Shown: piece by piece, positions 1,592-44,579 of the stretch
How positions within the stretch are numbered: position 1 is the stretch's first letter
Layout: every line of letters begins with the position of its first letter
The notes under the pieces: generated by a model
What the model saw: the letters and a program-made list of their open reading frames with translations, nothing else
Database searches by the model: none
Told to the model about the DNA's origin: nothing
Made by a program: the position numbers and the translations under genes
Assembly: GCF_013343215.1 (NCBI RefSeq)
Contig: NZ_CP039143.1
Span: forward strand, 1,364,001-1,428,000
DNA length: 64,000 nt
Source of the DNA: Acinetobacter sp. 10FS3-1
GTDB lineage: Bacteria; Pseudomonadota; Gammaproteobacteria; Pseudomonadales; Moraxellaceae
Reading direction: 5' to 3'

Positions 1592-1733
1592 TAATGTGTT
1601 GTGATAGACAAAAGAAGACTTAATTTTTGGGAGTGAATTAGCATAGTCTTTAGTATGAGATGTTTAACTTCACCCTAAAGTTATGATTTTGTTATGTTAT
1701 TATTTTTTATTTTATGAATATGTGTTTGATAAT

Positions 1734-2840
1734 ATGATGGAAAATAACGTACCAATATTTAAAGTTGGTCAAGTAAATGACATGCTAGGCAATACTTTTA
1801 GTGAGTTAGAAAGTCAAATTAATCAATACCTTGGTCAGAATATATCTATAAAAGGGAAGTTACTTAATGTTGAAGAGCAATTAAATAAATCTAGATATGC
1901 TTCAGTTTATCAGTTAAAGGTAGAAGATGAGACTGGCATCATTGAGGTTGAAATTTTTAAAAAATATATTGCTGATTTTAAGGATGGAGATTATGTCGAG
2001 TTAGTGGGGCAGCCAAAATTCAATCTATACAATGATATTCTTACAAAAAGATTCAGAGCCTTTTCAATAAGAGCAGCTGAAGCTGATAAGGATATTGAGC
2101 GACTACGGTCTGACTTAGATAGCTTTGATAAGTTAAAAAAATTTCCACCTAGATCTATTCCATTTCCGGATAAGCAGATCTTAAAAATATCCGTTATTTA
2201 TAGCTCCGCGACTAATGTAAAAATCGCAGAAGATTTTTATAAACATTTGAGTGGATATCAAAATCATTGTAATTTTAATGAAATTACAGTTAGTTTGAGT
2301 GATGACTTAGCACTATCACAAGCTATTGATAAAGCTCAAGGAAGTGACATTGTTGTTTTAATTAGAGGTGGTGGTAGCCCAGAGCATTTTAAAATTTTTA
2401 ACTCTGATCGTGTATTGGATTCATTTTCGAAGCTAGATGCCTATCGAGTAGTTGGGCTGGGACACAATACAGATGTTACATTACTTGACTATATTGCAGA
2501 TCATTCTGCTTATACGCCGTTGGACGCAGGTATCCACTTAAGAGATCAAATTGAAAGGGTTTTATCTCGTGATAAAGAAGCTATTGAAACAGTTTCAAAG
2601 TTACAGAGATATCAGAGTGAAAATCGATATAAAGATACGGAGATTCAAAAGCTAAAGTATGAGAATCAAAAGTTGCCGAGCTTACAAGAGGTAACAAAAC
2701 TTCGCGATGAAAAAGCACATCTAAGTGCGGAGTTAAATATGATTCGCAACAGACCTCCCGAAACTGATAATAAGATGATAGCTATCATTGCAGTAATAGC
2801 AGCAATTGTTGGCGTGGTTTTAGGTAAGTTTATGCTTTAG
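1734..2840 (+). CDS. Exonuclease VII large subunit-like protein with C-terminal membrane anchor
   Basis: 368 aa from the ATG at 1734; an alternative start at 1683 would add a hydrophobic 17-residue leader, and neither start has a strong ribosome site. Residues ~35-110 look like an OB-fold nucleic-acid-binding domain. Residues ~145-275 carry the XseA catalytic-core signatures RGGGS (211-215) and GHNTDVTLLDYIADHSAYTP (243-262). A coiled coil follows, then a single hydrophobic helix (~348-364) at the extreme C-terminus. Bacterial XseA has a longer coiled coil and no such anchor, and no xseB partner is adjacent. A membrane-bound nuclease in the prophage cargo region suggests defence or superinfection exclusion, which is inference. 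Confidence 0.75.
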   Translation: MMENNVPIFKVGQVNDMLGNTFSELESQINQYLGQNISIKGKLLNVEEQLNKSRYASVYQLKVEDETGIIEVEIFKKYIADFKDGDYVELVGQPKFNLYNDILTKRFRAFSIRAAEADKDIERLRSDLDSFDKLKKFPPRSIPFPDKQILKISVIYSSATNVKIAEDFYKHLSGYQNHCNFNEITVSLSDDLALSQAIDKAQGSDIVVLIRGGGSPEHFKIFNSDRVLDSFSKLDAYRVVGLGHNTDVTLLDYIADHSAYTPLDAGIHLRDQIERVLSRDKEAIETVSKLQRYQSENRYKDTEIQKLKYENQKLPSLQEVTKLRDEKAHLSAELNMIRNRPPETDNKMIAIIAVIAAIVGVVLGKFML

Positions 2841-3232: not shown

Positions 3233-3382
3233 GGTTTTGTTTTGTTGTTATTAATGGAGTCATTATAATAGAAGAAAAACCTATTGATAGGGAGGTAAAG
3301 GGAATTAAATATTTTTTGCAGCCCCTCGATGTCAGGCTTAAAAAGATATATCATATGCATTGAAATGAGGTTTATTTTAAAT

Positions 3383-4423
3383 ATGCAAATTGAAGCAGTA
3401 GATTTGTTCTGTGGTGCAGGTGGTTTAACTGCAGGACTGATTAAATCGGGAATTAGAGTAAAGGCTGGATATGACATTGCTAAGGAGTGTGAATTTGCCT
3501 ATGAGTATAATAATAAGGCAACTTTTGTCCATAAAGATGTTGCAGAAGTAACAGCTTCCGAAATTTCGTCATGGTATTCAGAGGGTAGCGTGCGTCTACT
3601 CGCAGGGTGTGCTCCATGCCAACCTTTTTCTACCTATAACAAAGGAAGAGACACCACAAAAGATGAAAAATGGCCTCTATTGTATCATTTCTCTCGTTTA
3701 ATTAAAGAAGTTAAGCCCGATCTGGTAACTATGGAAAATGTACCAGACGTGACTAAACATAAGGTTTATCATGATTTTATTGATGAGTTAAAAAAACTCG
3801 GGTATAAGATTACCGCACAAGAGGTTGCTTGTATTGATTACGGAGTGCCACAAACTAGACGCCGTCACGTGGTTTTGGCATCAAAACTTAACGACATCAA
3901 ATTAATAGAGCCTACTCACACTCAACCAATCACAGTAAAAGAAACAATTTTTGACCTCGAGCCTTTACAGGCAGGCCAAAAATCAAAAAATGACCCACTA
4001 CATGCATGCTCTAAACTTAGCGAGACTAATTTGAAGCGTATTAGAGCATCTAAGCCTGGTGGCACTTGGAGGGATTGGCCTGAGGTGTTACGTGCAGAAT
4101 GCCATAAAAAGGAATCTGGTAAATTCTATTCTGCTGTATATGGCCGCATGCATTGGGATCAACCAGCCCCAACAATTACAACCTTGTGCTTTGGCTTTGG
4201 AAATGGTCGCTTTGGGCATCCAGAGCAAGATCGCGCAATTAGCTTAAGGGAGGCTGCTTTATTTCAAACATTCCCTTTAAATTATCAATTTACACCTATC
4301 GATAAACCTGTAATTTTTAATATGATTGGGCGAATGATTGGCAATGCTGTGCCTGTGAGATTAGGGGAAGTAGTAGGGTTGAGTATTACATCATCTTTAA
4401 AAAATATTTATACTGCTGTTTGA
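3383..4423 (+). CDS. DNA (cytosine-5-)-methyltransferase
   Basis: 346 aa from the ATG at 3383, which places the first motif at the N-terminus as usual; earlier in-frame ATGs at 3329 and 3365 are possible. Motif I is DLFCGAGG (residues 7-14), motif IV is APCQPFS with the catalytic Cys79, motif VI is ENV (118-120), motif VIII is QTRRR (157-161), and motif X is around GNAVP (330-334). The target-recognition region lies between ~185 and 280. It would transfer a methyl group from SAM to cytosine C5. It is convergent with the HEPN/DUF262 pair and overlaps the HEPN gene by 16 bp, so the three probably form one modification-coupled defence locus. No conventional restriction gene is adjacent. Confidence 0.93.
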   Translation: MQIEAVDLFCGAGGLTAGLIKSGIRVKAGYDIAKECEFAYEYNNKATFVHKDVAEVTASEISSWYSEGSVRLLAGCAPCQPFSTYNKGRDTTKDEKWPLLYHFSRLIKEVKPDLVTMENVPDVTKHKVYHDFIDELKKLGYKITAQEVACIDYGVPQTRRRHVVLASKLNDIKLIEPTHTQPITVKETIFDLEPLQAGQKSKNDPLHACSKLSETNLKRIRASKPGGTWRDWPEVLRAECHKKESGKFYSAVYGRMHWDQPAPTITTLCFGFGNGRFGHPEQDRAISLREAALFQTFPLNYQFTPIDKPVIFNMIGRMIGNAVPVRLGEVVGLSITSSLKNIYTAV

Positions 4424-5145
4424 GCAGATGTCTTATAGCCTTGCTGACTAAGGTAAGCATCATACTGATCAATGATATATTTTAAATAATCTTTAACTAT
4501 ATCAATAAGCTTTCTGAAATCACTTGCTACGTGATTACTCCCGCACTCCGCAAATGAAATAGAGCCATGAGCTAACTTATTTCTTATCTCTTTAATTAAG
4601 CGAATCGGATTTTTATCATCTCTAAATGGGCGCATTACTTTTTGCTTTAATGGTGGAGATAAGCTGACATTAACACCAATGCTTTTACTTAATTTTTCTA
4701 TTTCTGTAACATCCCAGTTTCCGCCACCGCCTGGCGGAATCCTAATATTAATAGGTTTTAAGTTAAGAACTTGCTCAAATAATAAGAGGGCTTTTTCAAG
4801 CCTTTTTTCGTTGGTTAGTAGTTCGTAAGGTGCTGCCACTGAAGTAACATACAATTTGCGCATGTTTTCGGTTAATAAATCTAATTTACCATTAATACCT
4901 AATGTTGCGTGCCTCTCAACTGCATCAATTAAAGTCGAGATTGTGGATTCTATCAAATTGTATAAATGCAGGTAGATACTAGAGTACATGATTTTCTGTT
5001 GCTCAGGTTTTACAGTATAGCTATTGCCATTGAAGTGCAACACAGCCCCTCCCAAACTAATCGCTACTTCAATGTTATTTACTAACTCAAAGTAGCTTTC
5101 AATATCATCAACTCTGTCATCAAATACTGAGCGTACCAACTCCAA
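4408..5145 (-). CDS. HEPN-family RNase-like protein (MAE_28990/MAE_18760-type)
   Basis: About 245 aa, mostly alpha-helical. The diagnostic R-x4-H motif of HEPN ribonucleases is RNKLAHGS (residues ~188-195), placed late in the protein as in the MAE_28990/MAE_18760 group. No ATG is available near the N-terminus: TTG at 5145 lies seven bases from a GAGGAGG ribosome site formed by the last codons of the upstream DUF262 gene; TTG at 5151 is too close to it. Translation is therefore coupled to DUF262. Its 3' end overlaps the convergent methyltransferase. The likely role is RNA cleavage on infection, inferred from the family. Confidence 0.75.
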   Translation of the reverse strand: MELVRSVFDDRVDDIESYFELVNNIEVAISLGGAVLHFNGNSYTVKPEQQKIMYSSIYLHLYNLIESTISTLIDAVERHATLGINGKLDLLTENMRKLYVTSVAAPYELLTNEKRLEKALLLFEQVLNLKPINIRIPPGGGGNWDVTEIEKLSKSIGVNVSLSPPLKQKVMRPFRDDKNPIRLIKEIRNKLAHGSISFAECGSNHVASDFRKLIDIVKDYLKYIIDQYDAYLSQQGYKTSAQTAV

Positions 5146-5147
5146 GA

Positions 5148-6200
5148 TCAAGCCTCCTCTAATAATGCATCACGCATATAATCAATTCTTCCGGTCAGTT
5201 TACGTCGCGCATTTGCACCATCAGAACTAACCTCTTTCTTAAATTGGTCACGCCCTAATATTGAGTTTGTGGTTTGAATATCCACACTTAAGTCAGGTTT
5301 TTCTTCTAGAGCAAAATGGGAGCCTAAAGCAATTGATTCATACCTAGCTCTAGGTGTTGTTTTAGCACCAGAGGTTTTTCTAAATCCTAACTCAAAGGAC
5401 CTATCCACAAATTCAATCATTCTTTGGAAGCGTTTTTCATATTCCACTTCTAATTCAGGGTTTTCTTCAAATACATTGTTCATTTTTTTTATATATCTGA
5501 AGATAAATGGAGAAACATCATCTTTATAGCCATCTAATCCATCTGAATATGCGAAAAACCTGGCAACTAGCTCTTCAGCTTCTCTTTCCTTCTTCTGCTT
5601 AGAAGAAATAGGGGCTAATTTTACAAACAACTCATTCATTGCTAAGCGATTAACAAAGTCCATAAACTTACCACGAAGAGCACCACGTCTGACTTCCGCT
5701 GGGTTAGCCACCTTGCTACCTGTGTTAATCCTTTCGAATAAATCGACTCGAGCCTCCATGTCTGTATTTTCTGAAAGGATAATTCCCCTGATAGAAATAT
5801 TTAAGATCTTCCTGCGTCTTGATAAAGGCAGGTCATTAAAAGTAGTGCCATTTAATAAGTCTAAACGCTCAAGACTCTCTAAAGTTAATCGTCCCCCTAA
5901 ATACTCCTCAATAGTCCGTAGCCGTTGAGAACCATCTACGATTTCAAGCTTACCAGTCTCTCCATTCATCCAAAAAAATACAAATGGAATTGGCAAGCCA
6001 ATTAAAATAGATTCAATAAATTTACTTTTTCTTGGAGTATCCCATGTAAACTCACGTTGGTAATCAGGAACTGTATATTCATTTTCAGCAACTTTTTTGG
6101 CTAAAATTTCAATTGTATACTCAGAAGTATAAAAATCTATTTTTTTTGAATAACTTTGAAGCTGTAACTCAGCCTCTTTAAGCCTATCTTCATTATCCAT
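5148..6200 (-). CDS. DUF262 (GmrSD N-terminal-type) protein
   Basis: 350 aa from the ATG at 6200, which has GGAA eight bases upstream; an in-frame TTG at 6212 is less likely. The two DUF262 hallmark motifs are present: VPDYQREFTW (residues 44-53) and VDGSQRL (88-94). DUF262 is the N-terminal domain of the GmrSD type IV restriction enzymes and of phosphorothioate-sensing SspE, where it handles nucleotide-dependent sensing. There is no C-terminal DUF1524 HNH nuclease, so the adjacent HEPN protein may be the effector instead. The stop codon lies within the ribosome site/start region of the HEPN gene. Confidence 0.88.
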   Translation of the reverse strand: MDNEDRLKEAELQLQSYSKKIDFYTSEYTIEILAKKVAENEYTVPDYQREFTWDTPRKSKFIESILIGLPIPFVFFWMNGETGKLEIVDGSQRLRTIEEYLGGRLTLESLERLDLLNGTTFNDLPLSRRRKILNISIRGIILSENTDMEARVDLFERINTGSKVANPAEVRRGALRGKFMDFVNRLAMNELFVKLAPISSKQKKEREAEELVARFFAYSDGLDGYKDDVSPFIFRYIKKMNNVFEENPELEVEYEKRFQRMIEFVDRSFELGFRKTSGAKTTPRARYESIALGSHFALEEKPDLSVDIQTTNSILGRDQFKKEVSSDGANARRKLTGRIDYMRDALLEEA

Positions 6201-6379
6201 AATTTTTTCCAATTAGTTAAATAAAACAAACCTGCAAATTTTAGATATTTGCCAAAAAACACCTAGTGGGATTTAAATTTAATATCTAGTACCAATAAAT
6301 GTTGTCTCATTAATCATATAAATTTATCTAGAGCGCAGCACTTAAACTCAATTAAGCGTGCTTACACCCCCAAACCACC

Positions 6380-6402: not shown

Positions 6403-7101
6403 TTAATTCTTTCTCACTCTTGGTCTAGCGCGATAAACATAACGAACGCAGTCAACCACCTGGCCTACAAAAAGGCATTGATCATCTAACTCAATAATAT
6501 TGGGCTTAAATTCAGGATTTAGAGCTTGAAGGTATCTTTTACCATTTGTTTCAATAACCAGTTTTTTGAAAGTAGCATCGTCACCGCGACGGACTACAAT
6601 TATGTCACCAGACTGCATATCCCCATAATAGGCATCTGGATCTACAACGATGTAGTCGCCTTCCATGAAATCAGGGAAATTACTTAATCCCTGAACTTTA
6701 AGAAAAAAGCAGTTTGAACATTCATCTTCTGGCAAGGGCAACCATTCAGTTACTTCACTCATATCAACTGCTGCGACATTAGTAAAGCTACCAGCTTGAA
6801 CCCAAGATAGAACAGGGGCCATACGTGCTTTAACTCTTGGGACGTTCGCCAAGCTTTCGCCCCCAAATAAATTTTTGGCAGGTTGTTGATCTAAGGTTCC
6901 AATTTCCCACCCAACCTTTCTCTCTAAGTTTCGAGCTGCGCGTTCACCAAAACTCCCATGACCTTTCACAAGTTGAGATATATGACTTGGATTAAGGTCG
7001 TAATGCTCACAAAACGCAGCATCCGAAGAAAATCCCTCAGATTTTAATTTGGCATCAATAGCCTGGCGCAGATTGGCGCGTCTTAAAGAAATTATGTCCA
7101 T
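6403..7101 (-). CDS. CI-like repressor with S24 (LexA) autoprotease domain
   Basis: 232 aa. The N-terminal helix-turn-helix covers residues ~10-65. The C-terminal S24 domain has an Ala-Gly cleavage site (A103-G104 in WVQAGSF), a catalytic Ser at 140 (VQGLSNF) and Lys at 179 (ATFKK). DNA damage should therefore trigger RecA-assisted self-cleavage and induction. The gene is divergent from the cro-like gene. The 116-bp intergenic region holds operator palindromes that also occur at the leftward promoter. It should maintain lysogeny by repressing both early promoters. Confidence 0.92.
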   Translation of the reverse strand: MDIISLRRANLRQAIDAKLKSEGFSSDAAFCEHYDLNPSHISQLVKGHGSFGERAARNLERKVGWEIGTLDQQPAKNLFGGESLANVPRVKARMAPVLSWVQAGSFTNVAAVDMSEVTEWLPLPEDECSNCFFLKVQGLSNFPDFMEGDYIVVDPDAYYGDMQSGDIIVVRRGDDATFKKLVIETNGKRYLQALNPEFKPNIIELDDQCLFVGQVVDCVRYVYRARPRVRKN

Positions 7102-42956: not shown

Positions 42957-44579
42957 TTATTTATCCTTTTTAATAAGTACCGACTGATCAACATTGTAGT
43001 ACTTACTAATATCAAACCAGATTTTGATTTGACTTTCCCATTTATAAATACGGTCATTTTCAATTTTTAGCACATCTAGCCCGCTAAAATTAAAGTGTGT
43101 AGCATCTGCAGGTAACTGTTCCCATGCAATTACGGCATGGTCTTTAAACCAGCTTTCCCAAGCATTCTGAATGTAAGGCACCACGAAACTTTGCTGGATA
43201 TCATTCCAGGCAAAAATGTTTTGAATGCTAGATTTTTGCTTGTATGTATCAACAATACTTTTTGTTGGTCTAAAAGACTTTATAAATTGATCTAATAATT
43301 CCCCCACAAACGTATATTCTGTATTAATGACATCAGGCGCTTCAATCTGCGTATACAATTCTTCTGCATCAACAATATCAACTGCAGATACATAGCGTTG
43401 TTTTAGAGCAAACTGTGAATAGTTATCGTCAAACTGCATTTTTGCAGACTGAATTGCTTCTGAGTAATCCAGACGTTTGCCTCGTTTTTTAAGATTCACG
43501 TAACGCTTAAGACTATTCCAAGATGAATGCAATGTAATTGTCTGCAGCTGGGGAATAGTAAAACCATCTTCGGCGTAACGTGTGGCAGCTTCATGGCGTA
43601 AATCATGGAACCTCAGGTCTTCAATTTCATTTAAGCGACATGCTCTACGAAAATAATCACTGACTGTTTGCACATTAACTGGGAGTAGAAGGGCATCACT
43701 ATATCCAAGTTCAAGCATTCTTTTTCGTGTAGACGGCTCAAGTAGTTCATCAATGATCTGCAGGGCTTTCGGCTCTAAATGAGCATATTTATGATTCCCC
43801 TTGGATCCATCTGGGTTTTTAACATCACGAATTTTCCACTGGCTATTTTTTCTATCAAAGTCTTCAAGGCGCATTTCACAGAGTTCACCCTCACGACGAC
43901 CTGTATATATAGCCAGCCACATGACCAGGTGCATTGGAACAGCGTTGCGGATTCGCTTCCAACCTTTATAAAAGTGATTGGTAAGGATCTGCAACTCTTC
44001 TGATGTAATTAAACGATCACGTTCTTTGGATTTTGTGACAATCCGGGCCTTCTTTAAACCAATTAATGCATGTGATAGCTCATTTTTAGAATGTGCAACA
44101 TCTTCACCCCATACCAATTCAGCATGATTCAGAACTGAAGAAATATGAGATAAGTCTTTTAAAACTGTTGAGGGTGCTACGCCGCCAAGTAAGTCTGTAG
44201 GATTGCCTCTGCGTCGCTCAATAGCAAAGGATGAAAAATCCTGCCGAGAAAGAGTGTATACATCCTTAAGGGCAATATCGTATGTACATAAATTTTTTAA
44301 TGCCCAAGATTTAGTTTCTGCAAACTCATCTCCGATTTCGGTCAGATACCGGGTAATGAATTGTTCTAAAGTTTTTGACAAAACTTTGGCTTCAGGATTT
44401 AGAATAGTGGGGTTAACAAGGATCTCCGCTTCTAGTCGCTTTATCCACTCTTTTGCTTGTGACTCTTTAGCAAAGGTTCTTGTTTTAATAAATGGTGGTA
44501 AGCCTTTGCGAGTTATTCGTATTTGAGCTCTATACCGCAATTTACCATCAGCTGTTTTCCGTTCTGCAATTGTTCCCAT
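42957..44579 (-). CDS. Tyrosine integrase with an unusual C-terminal extension (540 aa)
   Basis: Arm-binding N-terminus (~1-60), core-binding domain (~75-175), then the catalytic domain with TGRREGE (Arg ~229), HDLRHEA (~327-333) and a Tyr in SLKRYVNL (~363). The typical enzyme would end near residue ~390. Here ~150 more residues follow, with a pattern resembling the NTF2/SnoaL-like fold (FKDHAVIAWEQLPADATHFN then SGLDVLKIENDRIYKWESQI). It lies beside dusB with arm-like repeats between. It catalyses integration and excision at the dusB site. Confidence 0.88.
   Translation of the reverse strand: MGTIAERKTADGKLRYRAQIRITRKGLPPFIKTRTFAKESQAKEWIKRLEAEILVNPTILNPEAKVLSKTLEQFITRYLTEIGDEFAETKSWALKNLCTYDIALKDVYTLSRQDFSSFAIERRRGNPTDLLGGVAPSTVLKDLSHISSVLNHAELVWGEDVAHSKNELSHALIGLKKARIVTKSKERDRLITSEELQILTNHFYKGWKRIRNAVPMHLVMWLAIYTGRREGELCEMRLEDFDRKNSQWKIRDVKNPDGSKGNHKYAHLEPKALQIIDELLEPSTRKRMLELGYSDALLLPVNVQTVSDYFRRACRLNEIEDLRFHDLRHEAATRYAEDGFTIPQLQTITLHSSWNSLKRYVNLKKRGKRLDYSEAIQSAKMQFDDNYSQFALKQRYVSAVDIVDAEELYTQIEAPDVINTEYTFVGELLDQFIKSFRPTKSIVDTYKQKSSIQNIFAWNDIQQSFVVPYIQNAWESWFKDHAVIAWEQLPADATHFNFSGLDVLKIENDRIYKWESQIKIWFDISKYYNVDQSVLIKKDK

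Follow-up and report, generated by a model that had tools for sequence, protein, structure and literature searches.

Computational analysis of a 64,000-nucleotide stretch of Acinetobacter sp. 10FS3-1 (contig NZ_CP039143.1, positions 1,364,001 to 1,428,000; hereafter the window) identified three genes that form one module: a C5 cytosine DNA methyltransferase, a HEPN protein and a DUF262 protein (together, the trio). The genes are tightly linked across bacterial genomes and viral contigs, carry invariant residues of catalytic type, share a single type of methyltransferase recognition region and, in the window, reside in a prophage. We propose, with a probability of roughly 0.55, that the trio is a mobile antiphage module resembling restriction-modification, in which a toxin takes the place of the DNA-cutting enzyme: wrong methylation would be detected by DUF262, which would set off an RNA-cutting HEPN.

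Linkage and conservation of the three genes

An alignment of 46 HEPN relatives was used to scan GTDB species genomes, which yielded 72 loci, and viral contigs, which yielded 13. At all 85 loci a DUF262 gene lay no more than 100 bp upstream of the HEPN gene, a few of the DUF262 frames being split or cut by the contig end (for example L017, L037, L070 and L074). A C5 methyltransferase stood beside the pair in 69 of the 72 genome loci, the exceptions being L064, which lies at a contig end, L068 and L076. It was also present in 12 of the 13 viral loci; the other, L087, ends at the contig edge. As background, only four of the 72 genome regions (L007, L012, L048 and L061) held a further C5 methyltransferase at some distance from the trio.

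The reverse search, started from DUF262 in viral contigs, kept 80 of 151 relatives. HEPN was adjacent in all 80, the DUF262 frame being split in L191, and a methyltransferase was present in 74; counting only the 49 distinct loci, it was present in 43. Among the six viral loci without a methyltransferase, L191, L209, L247 and L249 had less than 1.1 kb of contig left, which was not the case for L220 and L248. The preliminary description of this DNA had treated the three genes as one system and named co-occurrence as the check. Because the methyltransferase accompanied the pair at these frequencies from both starting points, and DUF262 and HEPN stood side by side at every locus kept from either scan, we regard the three genes as one module.

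In 369 genomes of the class, 28 of 30 DUF262 loci were examined: HEPN followed each of the eight strongest matches (L258-L265), and none of the following 20 (L266-L285) had a HEPN-profile match beside it. Several of these 20 DUF262 genes precede ATPase-like proteins or short RNxxxH proteins, as judged by eye and with a simple pattern; the distant DUF262 genes preceding short RNxxxH proteins (L272-L275 and L281) perhaps represent further DUF262-HEPN types. A methyltransferase search of 194 related genomes recovered five enzymes at least 57% identical to that of the window, four beside the pair and the fifth (L104) not, and at the other 25 loci examined from this search (L106-L130) the pair was absent within about 1.5 kb. 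Within any single group the module is uncommon: HEPN profile matches occurred in 6 of the 194 genomes. No DUF262-HEPN fusion was found among the best 120 of 4781 DUF262 relatives, all of which carried PF03235 only.

From 92 HEPN loci, 79 had a DUF262 protein longer than 280 aa and a methyltransferase longer than 300 aa, and 71 remained after removal of identical copies. A set of 115 distinct systems was also compiled; it omits L095 (the same locus as L154), the contig-edge loci L209, L247 and L249, short DUF262 frames and near-copies more than 90% similar in HEPN, and still holds two row pairs with identical DUF262. The methyltransferase was downstream on the same strand in 52 systems, convergent in 46, upstream in 11 and absent in 6. 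On a DUF262 tree, a quick tree with several long branches, gene arrangement needed 6 changes, whereas 200 shuffles averaged 49.2 and none gave a value as low. The six methyltransferase-less systems formed one clade (starred) of Bacillota, Bacteroidota and same-genus members, so that a single change accounts for the absence of the methyltransferase. The methyltransferase-linked systems covered nine named phyla, with 47 of the 109 records carrying no phylum name.

HEPN residues N65, E68, R190, H195 and G196 and DUF262 residues D93, G94, Q96 and R97 were invariant in 115 of 115 systems. Conserved motifs supplied the search patterns of the genome and viral scans, so conservation of a motif counts as independent evidence only in the set found through the other protein. 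R190 and H195, the ends of the R-x4-6-H motif of HEPN RNases, were present in 36 of 36 DUF262-found systems, a set not searched by that motif, and D93, G94, Q96 and R97 were present in 71 of 71 HEPN-found systems, for which the search pattern likewise did not require them. Judged on these sequences, conservation of R190/H195 and of the DG-QR motif exceeds chance. Pairwise identities over 75 rows correlated at 0.91 for HEPN and DUF262, 0.63 for HEPN and methyltransferase and 0.66 for DUF262 and methyltransferase, each above all 199 shuffles, with shared ancestry uncontrolled and L095 and L154, one locus, counted twice. HEPN and DUF262 are bound more closely to each other than to the methyltransferase.

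In the window, open reading frames and Pfam matches agreed with the preliminary description of a C5 methyltransferase converging on a coupled DUF262-HEPN pair; the motifs YQREFTW, DGSQR and RNKLAH (R190-H195) were all present, and the 16-bp overlap of the methyltransferase and HEPN 3' ends was found as described (Table 1). The 4-bp overlap of DUF262 and HEPN is as expected for coupled translation. All three Pfam matches lay above their cut-offs (26.8 bits for PF18737, HEPN_MAE_28990; 33.2 bits for PF03235, GmrSD_N). The methyltransferase start was placed at ATG 3383, in a frame already open from a start at 3329, and its PCQ, ENV and QxRxR motif patterns recurred in 109 of 109 linked relatives. 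The DUF262 protein measures 354 aa from TTG 6212 or 350 aa from ATG 6200. No DUF1524 match was found in any of the three proteins in Pfam up to E 0.1; PF03235 was the sole Pfam match of the DUF262 protein, which had no HNH match either, and NCBIfam gave no match for HEPN or DUF262.

Table 1. Features of the trio in the window.
Feature	Position	Strand	Evidence or remark
C5 cytosine DNA methyltransferase, 346 aa	3383..4423	+	PF00145, 187 bits; PCQ, ENV and QxRxR motifs
Target-recognition region of the methyltransferase (PGGTWRDWP...CHKK...YGRMHW...PTITT...GNGRFGHP)	3872..4234	+	one type family-wide
Overlap of converging 3' ends of methyltransferase and HEPN, 16 bp	4408..4423		open reading frame coordinates
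Predicted RNase effector, a HEPN protein of the MAE_28990 family, 247 aa	4408..5151	-	TTG start; PF18737, 54.5 bits
R-x4-H motif RNKLAH, HEPN residues 190-195	4567..4584	-	sequence; R and H in 115/115, N in 114/115
TTGA overlap of DUF262 stop and HEPN start, 4 bp	5148..5151	-	open reading frame coordinates
DUF262 / GmrSD_N protein, predicted NTP-dependent sensor without DUF1524	5148..6212	-	PF03235, 83.7 bits
DUF262 D331-N334, SDGAN motif	5211..5222	-	tracks methyltransferase linkage
DUF262 R290, TPRxRFEA motif	5343..5345	-	tracks methyltransferase linkage
DGSQR motif, DUF262 residues 93-97, predicted nucleotide pocket	5922..5936	-	D93, G94, Q96 and R97 in 115/115

Methyltransferase recognition region and DUF262 residues

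The region between methyltransferase motifs VIII and IX (identity measured over window 3872-4159) was as conserved as the enzyme core in 71 trio methyltransferases (mean identity 0.577 vs 0.571); in 29 other C5 methyltransferases the values were 0.212 vs 0.367. A simple signature of the recognition region was present in 105 of 109 linked systems and in 1 of 29 controls (L104); a stricter regular expression, itself badly drafted, matched 11 of 109. The exceptions to the simple signature were broken frames in L097 and L186 and another C5 enzyme type in L190 and L257. At core identities of 0.45-0.55, 1250 trio pairs averaged 0.535 in the recognition region (lowest 0.41), and 11 control pairs, a thin control, averaged 0.415 (0.12 to 0.63). 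The few control pairs with core identity above 0.55 were as alike in the recognition region as trio pairs. Given the thinness of the matched-identity control, the claim of a single type draws mainly on the signature and the lowest trio value. Methyltransferase-guarded systems do not usually keep their target-recognition region constant; the constancy seen here suggests that the trio methyltransferases have one common target word. The DrmMII model of PADLOC scored the methyltransferase at 287 bits; because of this score CCWGG, which we take to be the word of DISARM DrmMII, was considered as the methylated word and is left as a lead.

Four positions in the C-terminal part of DUF262 tracked methyltransferase linkage. 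R290 was present in 108 of 109 linked systems and 0 of 6 unlinked ones, P287 in 104 of 109 vs 0 of 6, and D331 in 104 of 109 vs 1 of 6; position 334 was N in 108 of 109 linked systems and H in 6 of 6 unlinked ones. The unlinked set is one clade, and these residue changes therefore count as one evolutionary event. A simple motif search near the six unlinked pairs found no other methyltransferase in five, and a single pattern match in L152, probably due to chance. Three further HEPN-paired DUF262 proteins with no methyltransferase within 1.5 kb (L263-L265) lacked R290 and had N at the second place; two of their genomes (G215 and G343) had no match to the window-type methyltransferase, and the third had weak matches.

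These patterns raise the possibility, which we consider less likely than not, of a fixed-address check: about 100 systems in nine phyla would methylate and inspect the same word, the C-terminal part of DUF262 (TPRxRFEA and SDxxN) being tuned to the methylation state of that word, and a failed check would lead to destruction of RNA rather than DNA. The sister clade, whether it once had a methyltransferase or not, would have altered its reader (R290 lost, N334 to H). The same clade bears on an SspE-like logic, in which DUF262 would need host methylation as a licence to become armed, instead of being triggered where the mark is missing. The R290/N334 changes fit either logic, and the existence of a clade without methyltransferase speaks against such a licence, which we consider fairly improbable.

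Several observations weigh against the proposed methylation-guarded toxin or against its single recognition word. Pairs without methyltransferase make up 6 of the 115 systems, and in L057, L086 (same contig as L186) and L097 a short or split methyltransferase stands beside full-length DUF262 and HEPN. These three broken enzymes argue most clearly against strict dependence and would not be predicted if the methyltransferase-less state were lethal, although sequence errors may lie behind the broken frames. The converse, a split DUF262 beside a full-length methyltransferase, was seen in L017 and L074. L190 and L257 retain R290 and N334 despite their other C5 enzyme type, and L261 retains both motifs in a genome with only weak methyltransferase matches (best E 7.8e-14), its contig being cut 184 bp upstream of the match; these three loci weaken the view that a single word is read through R290 and N334. 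The HEPN structure model (pLDDT 90.8) had no significant Foldseek match (best E 0.43). In G013, at a similar prophage position, the methyltransferase is 76% identical to that of the window, with HEPN at 18% and DUF262 at 34%, indicating that pair and methyltransferase are exchangeable: either a new pair arrived next to a conserved methyltransferase, or the reverse took place. L104 (G193, 1026-2631) has the same recognition type, 57% identical to the window's, beside a Vsr endonuclease and a helicase-like gene (by eye) and without DUF262 or HEPN, so that the methyltransferase type is not exclusive to the trio. G013 and L104 would also suit chance neighbours, an orphan methyltransferase beside an unrelated DUF262-HEPN pair; the linkage counts, which hold across three gene arrangements, make this very unlikely indeed.

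Prophage residence and mobile cargo

The trio adjoins a CI-like repressor gene (6403-7101), which is followed by genes for a CII-like activator, an HNH protein, terminase, portal and a tape-measure protein. An integrase gene lies at 42957-44579, beside dusA. One copy of a 19-bp direct repeat lies at window 44758, in the start of dusA (attR), and the other at G000:C1:1361030 (attL), which is 2.97 kb to the left of the window; this repeat pair indicates a dusA-integrated prophage about 47.7 kb long, whose cargo includes the trio, placed between attL and the CI-like repressor. The G+C content of the trio is 36-40%, compared with 43% in both prophage and host.

The repressor region was matched in 39 of 115 related genomes, and a recognisable repressor was present in 14 of the 18 regions examined. 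The slot downstream of it held a DUF2326 protein in L161, an AAA ATPase with a D12 methyltransferase in L163, an AAA protein (Pfam) with a methyltransferase (by eye) in L166 and an IrrE-type protein with DUF4411 in L171. Host-type genes occupied the slot in four of the 14 (L164, L165, L169 and L170), and mainly small or unknown genes in the remainder. Two more same-genus prophages, L153 and L154, have the trio downstream of a gene that looks, by eye, like a repressor. The varied genes beside the repressor in same-genus prophages suggest that the slot takes cargo, partly of defence type, and the contents of L161, L163, L166 and L171 make it a possible hotspot for mining.

Other features of this genome were recorded in passing. 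The product of a prophage gene at window 1683-2840 (+) matches the exonuclease VII large subunit (PF02601, 69 bits) and, weakly, an OB fold; its C-terminal end is hydrophobic. Just outside attL, a host xseA-like gene left of the prophage (L156 1437-2735; G000:C1 ~1357436-1358734) appears by eye as two separate frames, which may reflect an assembly error or a pseudogene. The same genome has four more DUF262/GmrSD_N matches (L002-L005: C2:95406, C2:172150, C3:38916 and C5:28965); two of the four lie in long reading frames, 552 and 560 aa in length.

Beyond this prophage, the P2-like phage record P2_4B2 (L097) carries the trio with the methyltransferase split into two frames, and plasmids carry it in three inspected of four matching records (Azospirillum and two Rhodococcus). 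Among 5426 complete E. coli genomes, seven matched; the three inspected, strains 1002W03 and VG12A2 among them, have an annotated, complete trio in a P2-like prophage, flanked by the genes for the portal and the replication endonuclease. This location is the P2 gpA-gpQ site, described in Rousset 2022 (PMC9122126) as a hotspot of anti-phage systems; the main text of that paper contains no occurrence of DUF262 or of methyltransferase.

Residence in prophages, a P2-like phage and plasmids would also be expected of a selfish addiction module, in which the methyltransferase serves as antidote, cells that have lost the prophage or plasmid are killed by the pair, and phage defence is secondary; that the methyltransferase-less systems form one clade agrees with it as well. 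We judge this quite improbable, since the trio is also found on bacterial contigs of many phyla (which may themselves belong to mobile elements), intact pairs stand beside broken methyltransferases, and the other contents of the P2 slot include tested defence systems (PMC9122126).

Known systems and the proposed mechanism

In fold the DUF262 model came closest to BrxU, ParB CTPases and SspE; for ParB CTPases and SspE the likeness covers the nucleotide-binding part. The DUF262 domain, the DGxQR motif and the ParB/Srx-type fold are common to GmrSD and BrxU; these carry DUF1524, whereas the trio has a HEPN gene and a methyltransferase instead. The earlier proposal that HEPN stands in place of the DUF1524 nuclease fits these models in that a BrxU-like DUF262 without DUF1524 is coupled to HEPN; the function of HEPN is predicted. 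SspE also carries DUF1524 and senses phosphorothioation, in place of which the trio has HEPN and predicted 5-methylcytosine (5mC). PDB sequence matches of HEPN (stretches of cyclohexadienyl dehydratase and a Cas6; E 0.0043 to 0.78) were judged to be chance.

With PADLOC 2.0.0, the DUF262 protein matched best to NsnA (PDLC03877, 190 bits), which we take to be the Menshen DUF262 subunit, and scored 104 bits against PD-T4-2_A; no model matched HEPN, either the window protein or four relatives. The trio DUF262 protein is thus NsnA-like, yet Menshen pairs DUF262 with a predicted OLD nuclease. No OLD/AAA match was found in the scanned genes at 0.5-7.1 kb, where the direct neighbours of DUF262 are HEPN and the CI-like repressor. 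A review (PMC10952713) places DUF262 in PD-T4-2, Menshen and Dazbog and a PF18735 HEPN in PD-T4-2, and states that type IV enzymes cut modified DNA. PD-T4-2 (Vassallo et al. 2022), reported to confer protection from T4 both on its native strain and on K-12, resembles the trio in pairing a DUF262 protein with a HEPN protein; its HEPN is PF18735, whereas the trio HEPN scores 17.9 bits against PF18735, below the cut-off of 28.4. PD-lambda-5 (Vassallo et al. 2022), described as compact RM+Abi, is likened to the trio by idea only. Like type II restriction-modification systems the trio has a C5 methyltransferase (109 of 115 systems), which is probably cognate to the pair.

The closest earlier record is Table 1 of Anantharaman 2013 (PMC3710099), where MAE_28990 HEPNs stand in an operon with 'ParB nuclease' and DNA methylase genes. 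The trio has PF18737 with adjacent PF03235 and PF00145, and ParB CTPases are among the nearest DUF262 folds; the 'ParB nuclease' of 2013 is probably DUF262, and the PF18737 HEPN, a ParB-type partner and a DNA methylase are common to both. In the text available, that neighbourhood is one table row, with no name, test, phylogeny or specificity analysis for the trio. With this row and the DUF262-HEPN pairing of PD-T4-2 on record, the newness that the preliminary description had claimed for the combination was too strong. Among the papers listed by the literature searches, no bench test of the trio was found; new, as far as seen, are three findings: that the recognition type is fixed, that the methyltransferase-less systems form a single clade and that certain DUF262 residues track linkage.

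The same survey proposes that HEPNs linked to restriction-modification act like PrrC. Applied to the trio, DUF262 would cut unmethylated DNA and a HEPN RNase would be released as a suicide back-up if restriction fails, as with PrrC and PrrI. The survey's naming of the partner as a nuclease favours this, as does a weak match of DUF262 to the PADLOC type II restriction enzyme model REase_II (PDLC03418, 6.8e-10). The absence of HNH and DUF1524 in a protein with PF03235 as its only Pfam match, and the nearest folds given above, count against it. PrrC with PrrI likewise joins restriction-modification genes to a HEPN RNase effector, but PrrC fuses an ABC ATPase to HEPN and is held by a type I system. 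On balance we consider the suicide back-up unlikely.

A methylation-guarded toxin appears to be the most economical reading. First, as PF00145 and the intact motifs suggest, the methyltransferase would place 5mC on one fixed word in host and prophage DNA. DUF262, a ParB/Srx-fold relative of GmrS, BrxU and SspE, would then check DNA for that word in a wrongly methylated state, its C-terminal domain (the R290 and N334 region) being the candidate reader. Finally, DUF262 would use NTP to change state and license the coupled HEPN, which may cleave RNA through R190/H195 and so stop the cell or the phage, providing defence.

If this mechanism holds, the trio would be a widespread restriction-like immunity that answers wrongly methylated DNA by an attack on RNA, and its presence in E. 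coli prophages makes it testable in laboratory strains. If the fixed-address check is also true, the family would correspond to restriction-modification with RNA as the target and with a specificity that stayed undiversified, and the constant recognition region raises the question of why phages have not all escaped through loss of one word. The methyltransferase-linked and methyltransferase-less systems offer a natural comparison for how DUF262 proteins, including those of GmrSD, BrxU, SspE, Menshen and PD-T4-2, read DNA and drive different effectors.

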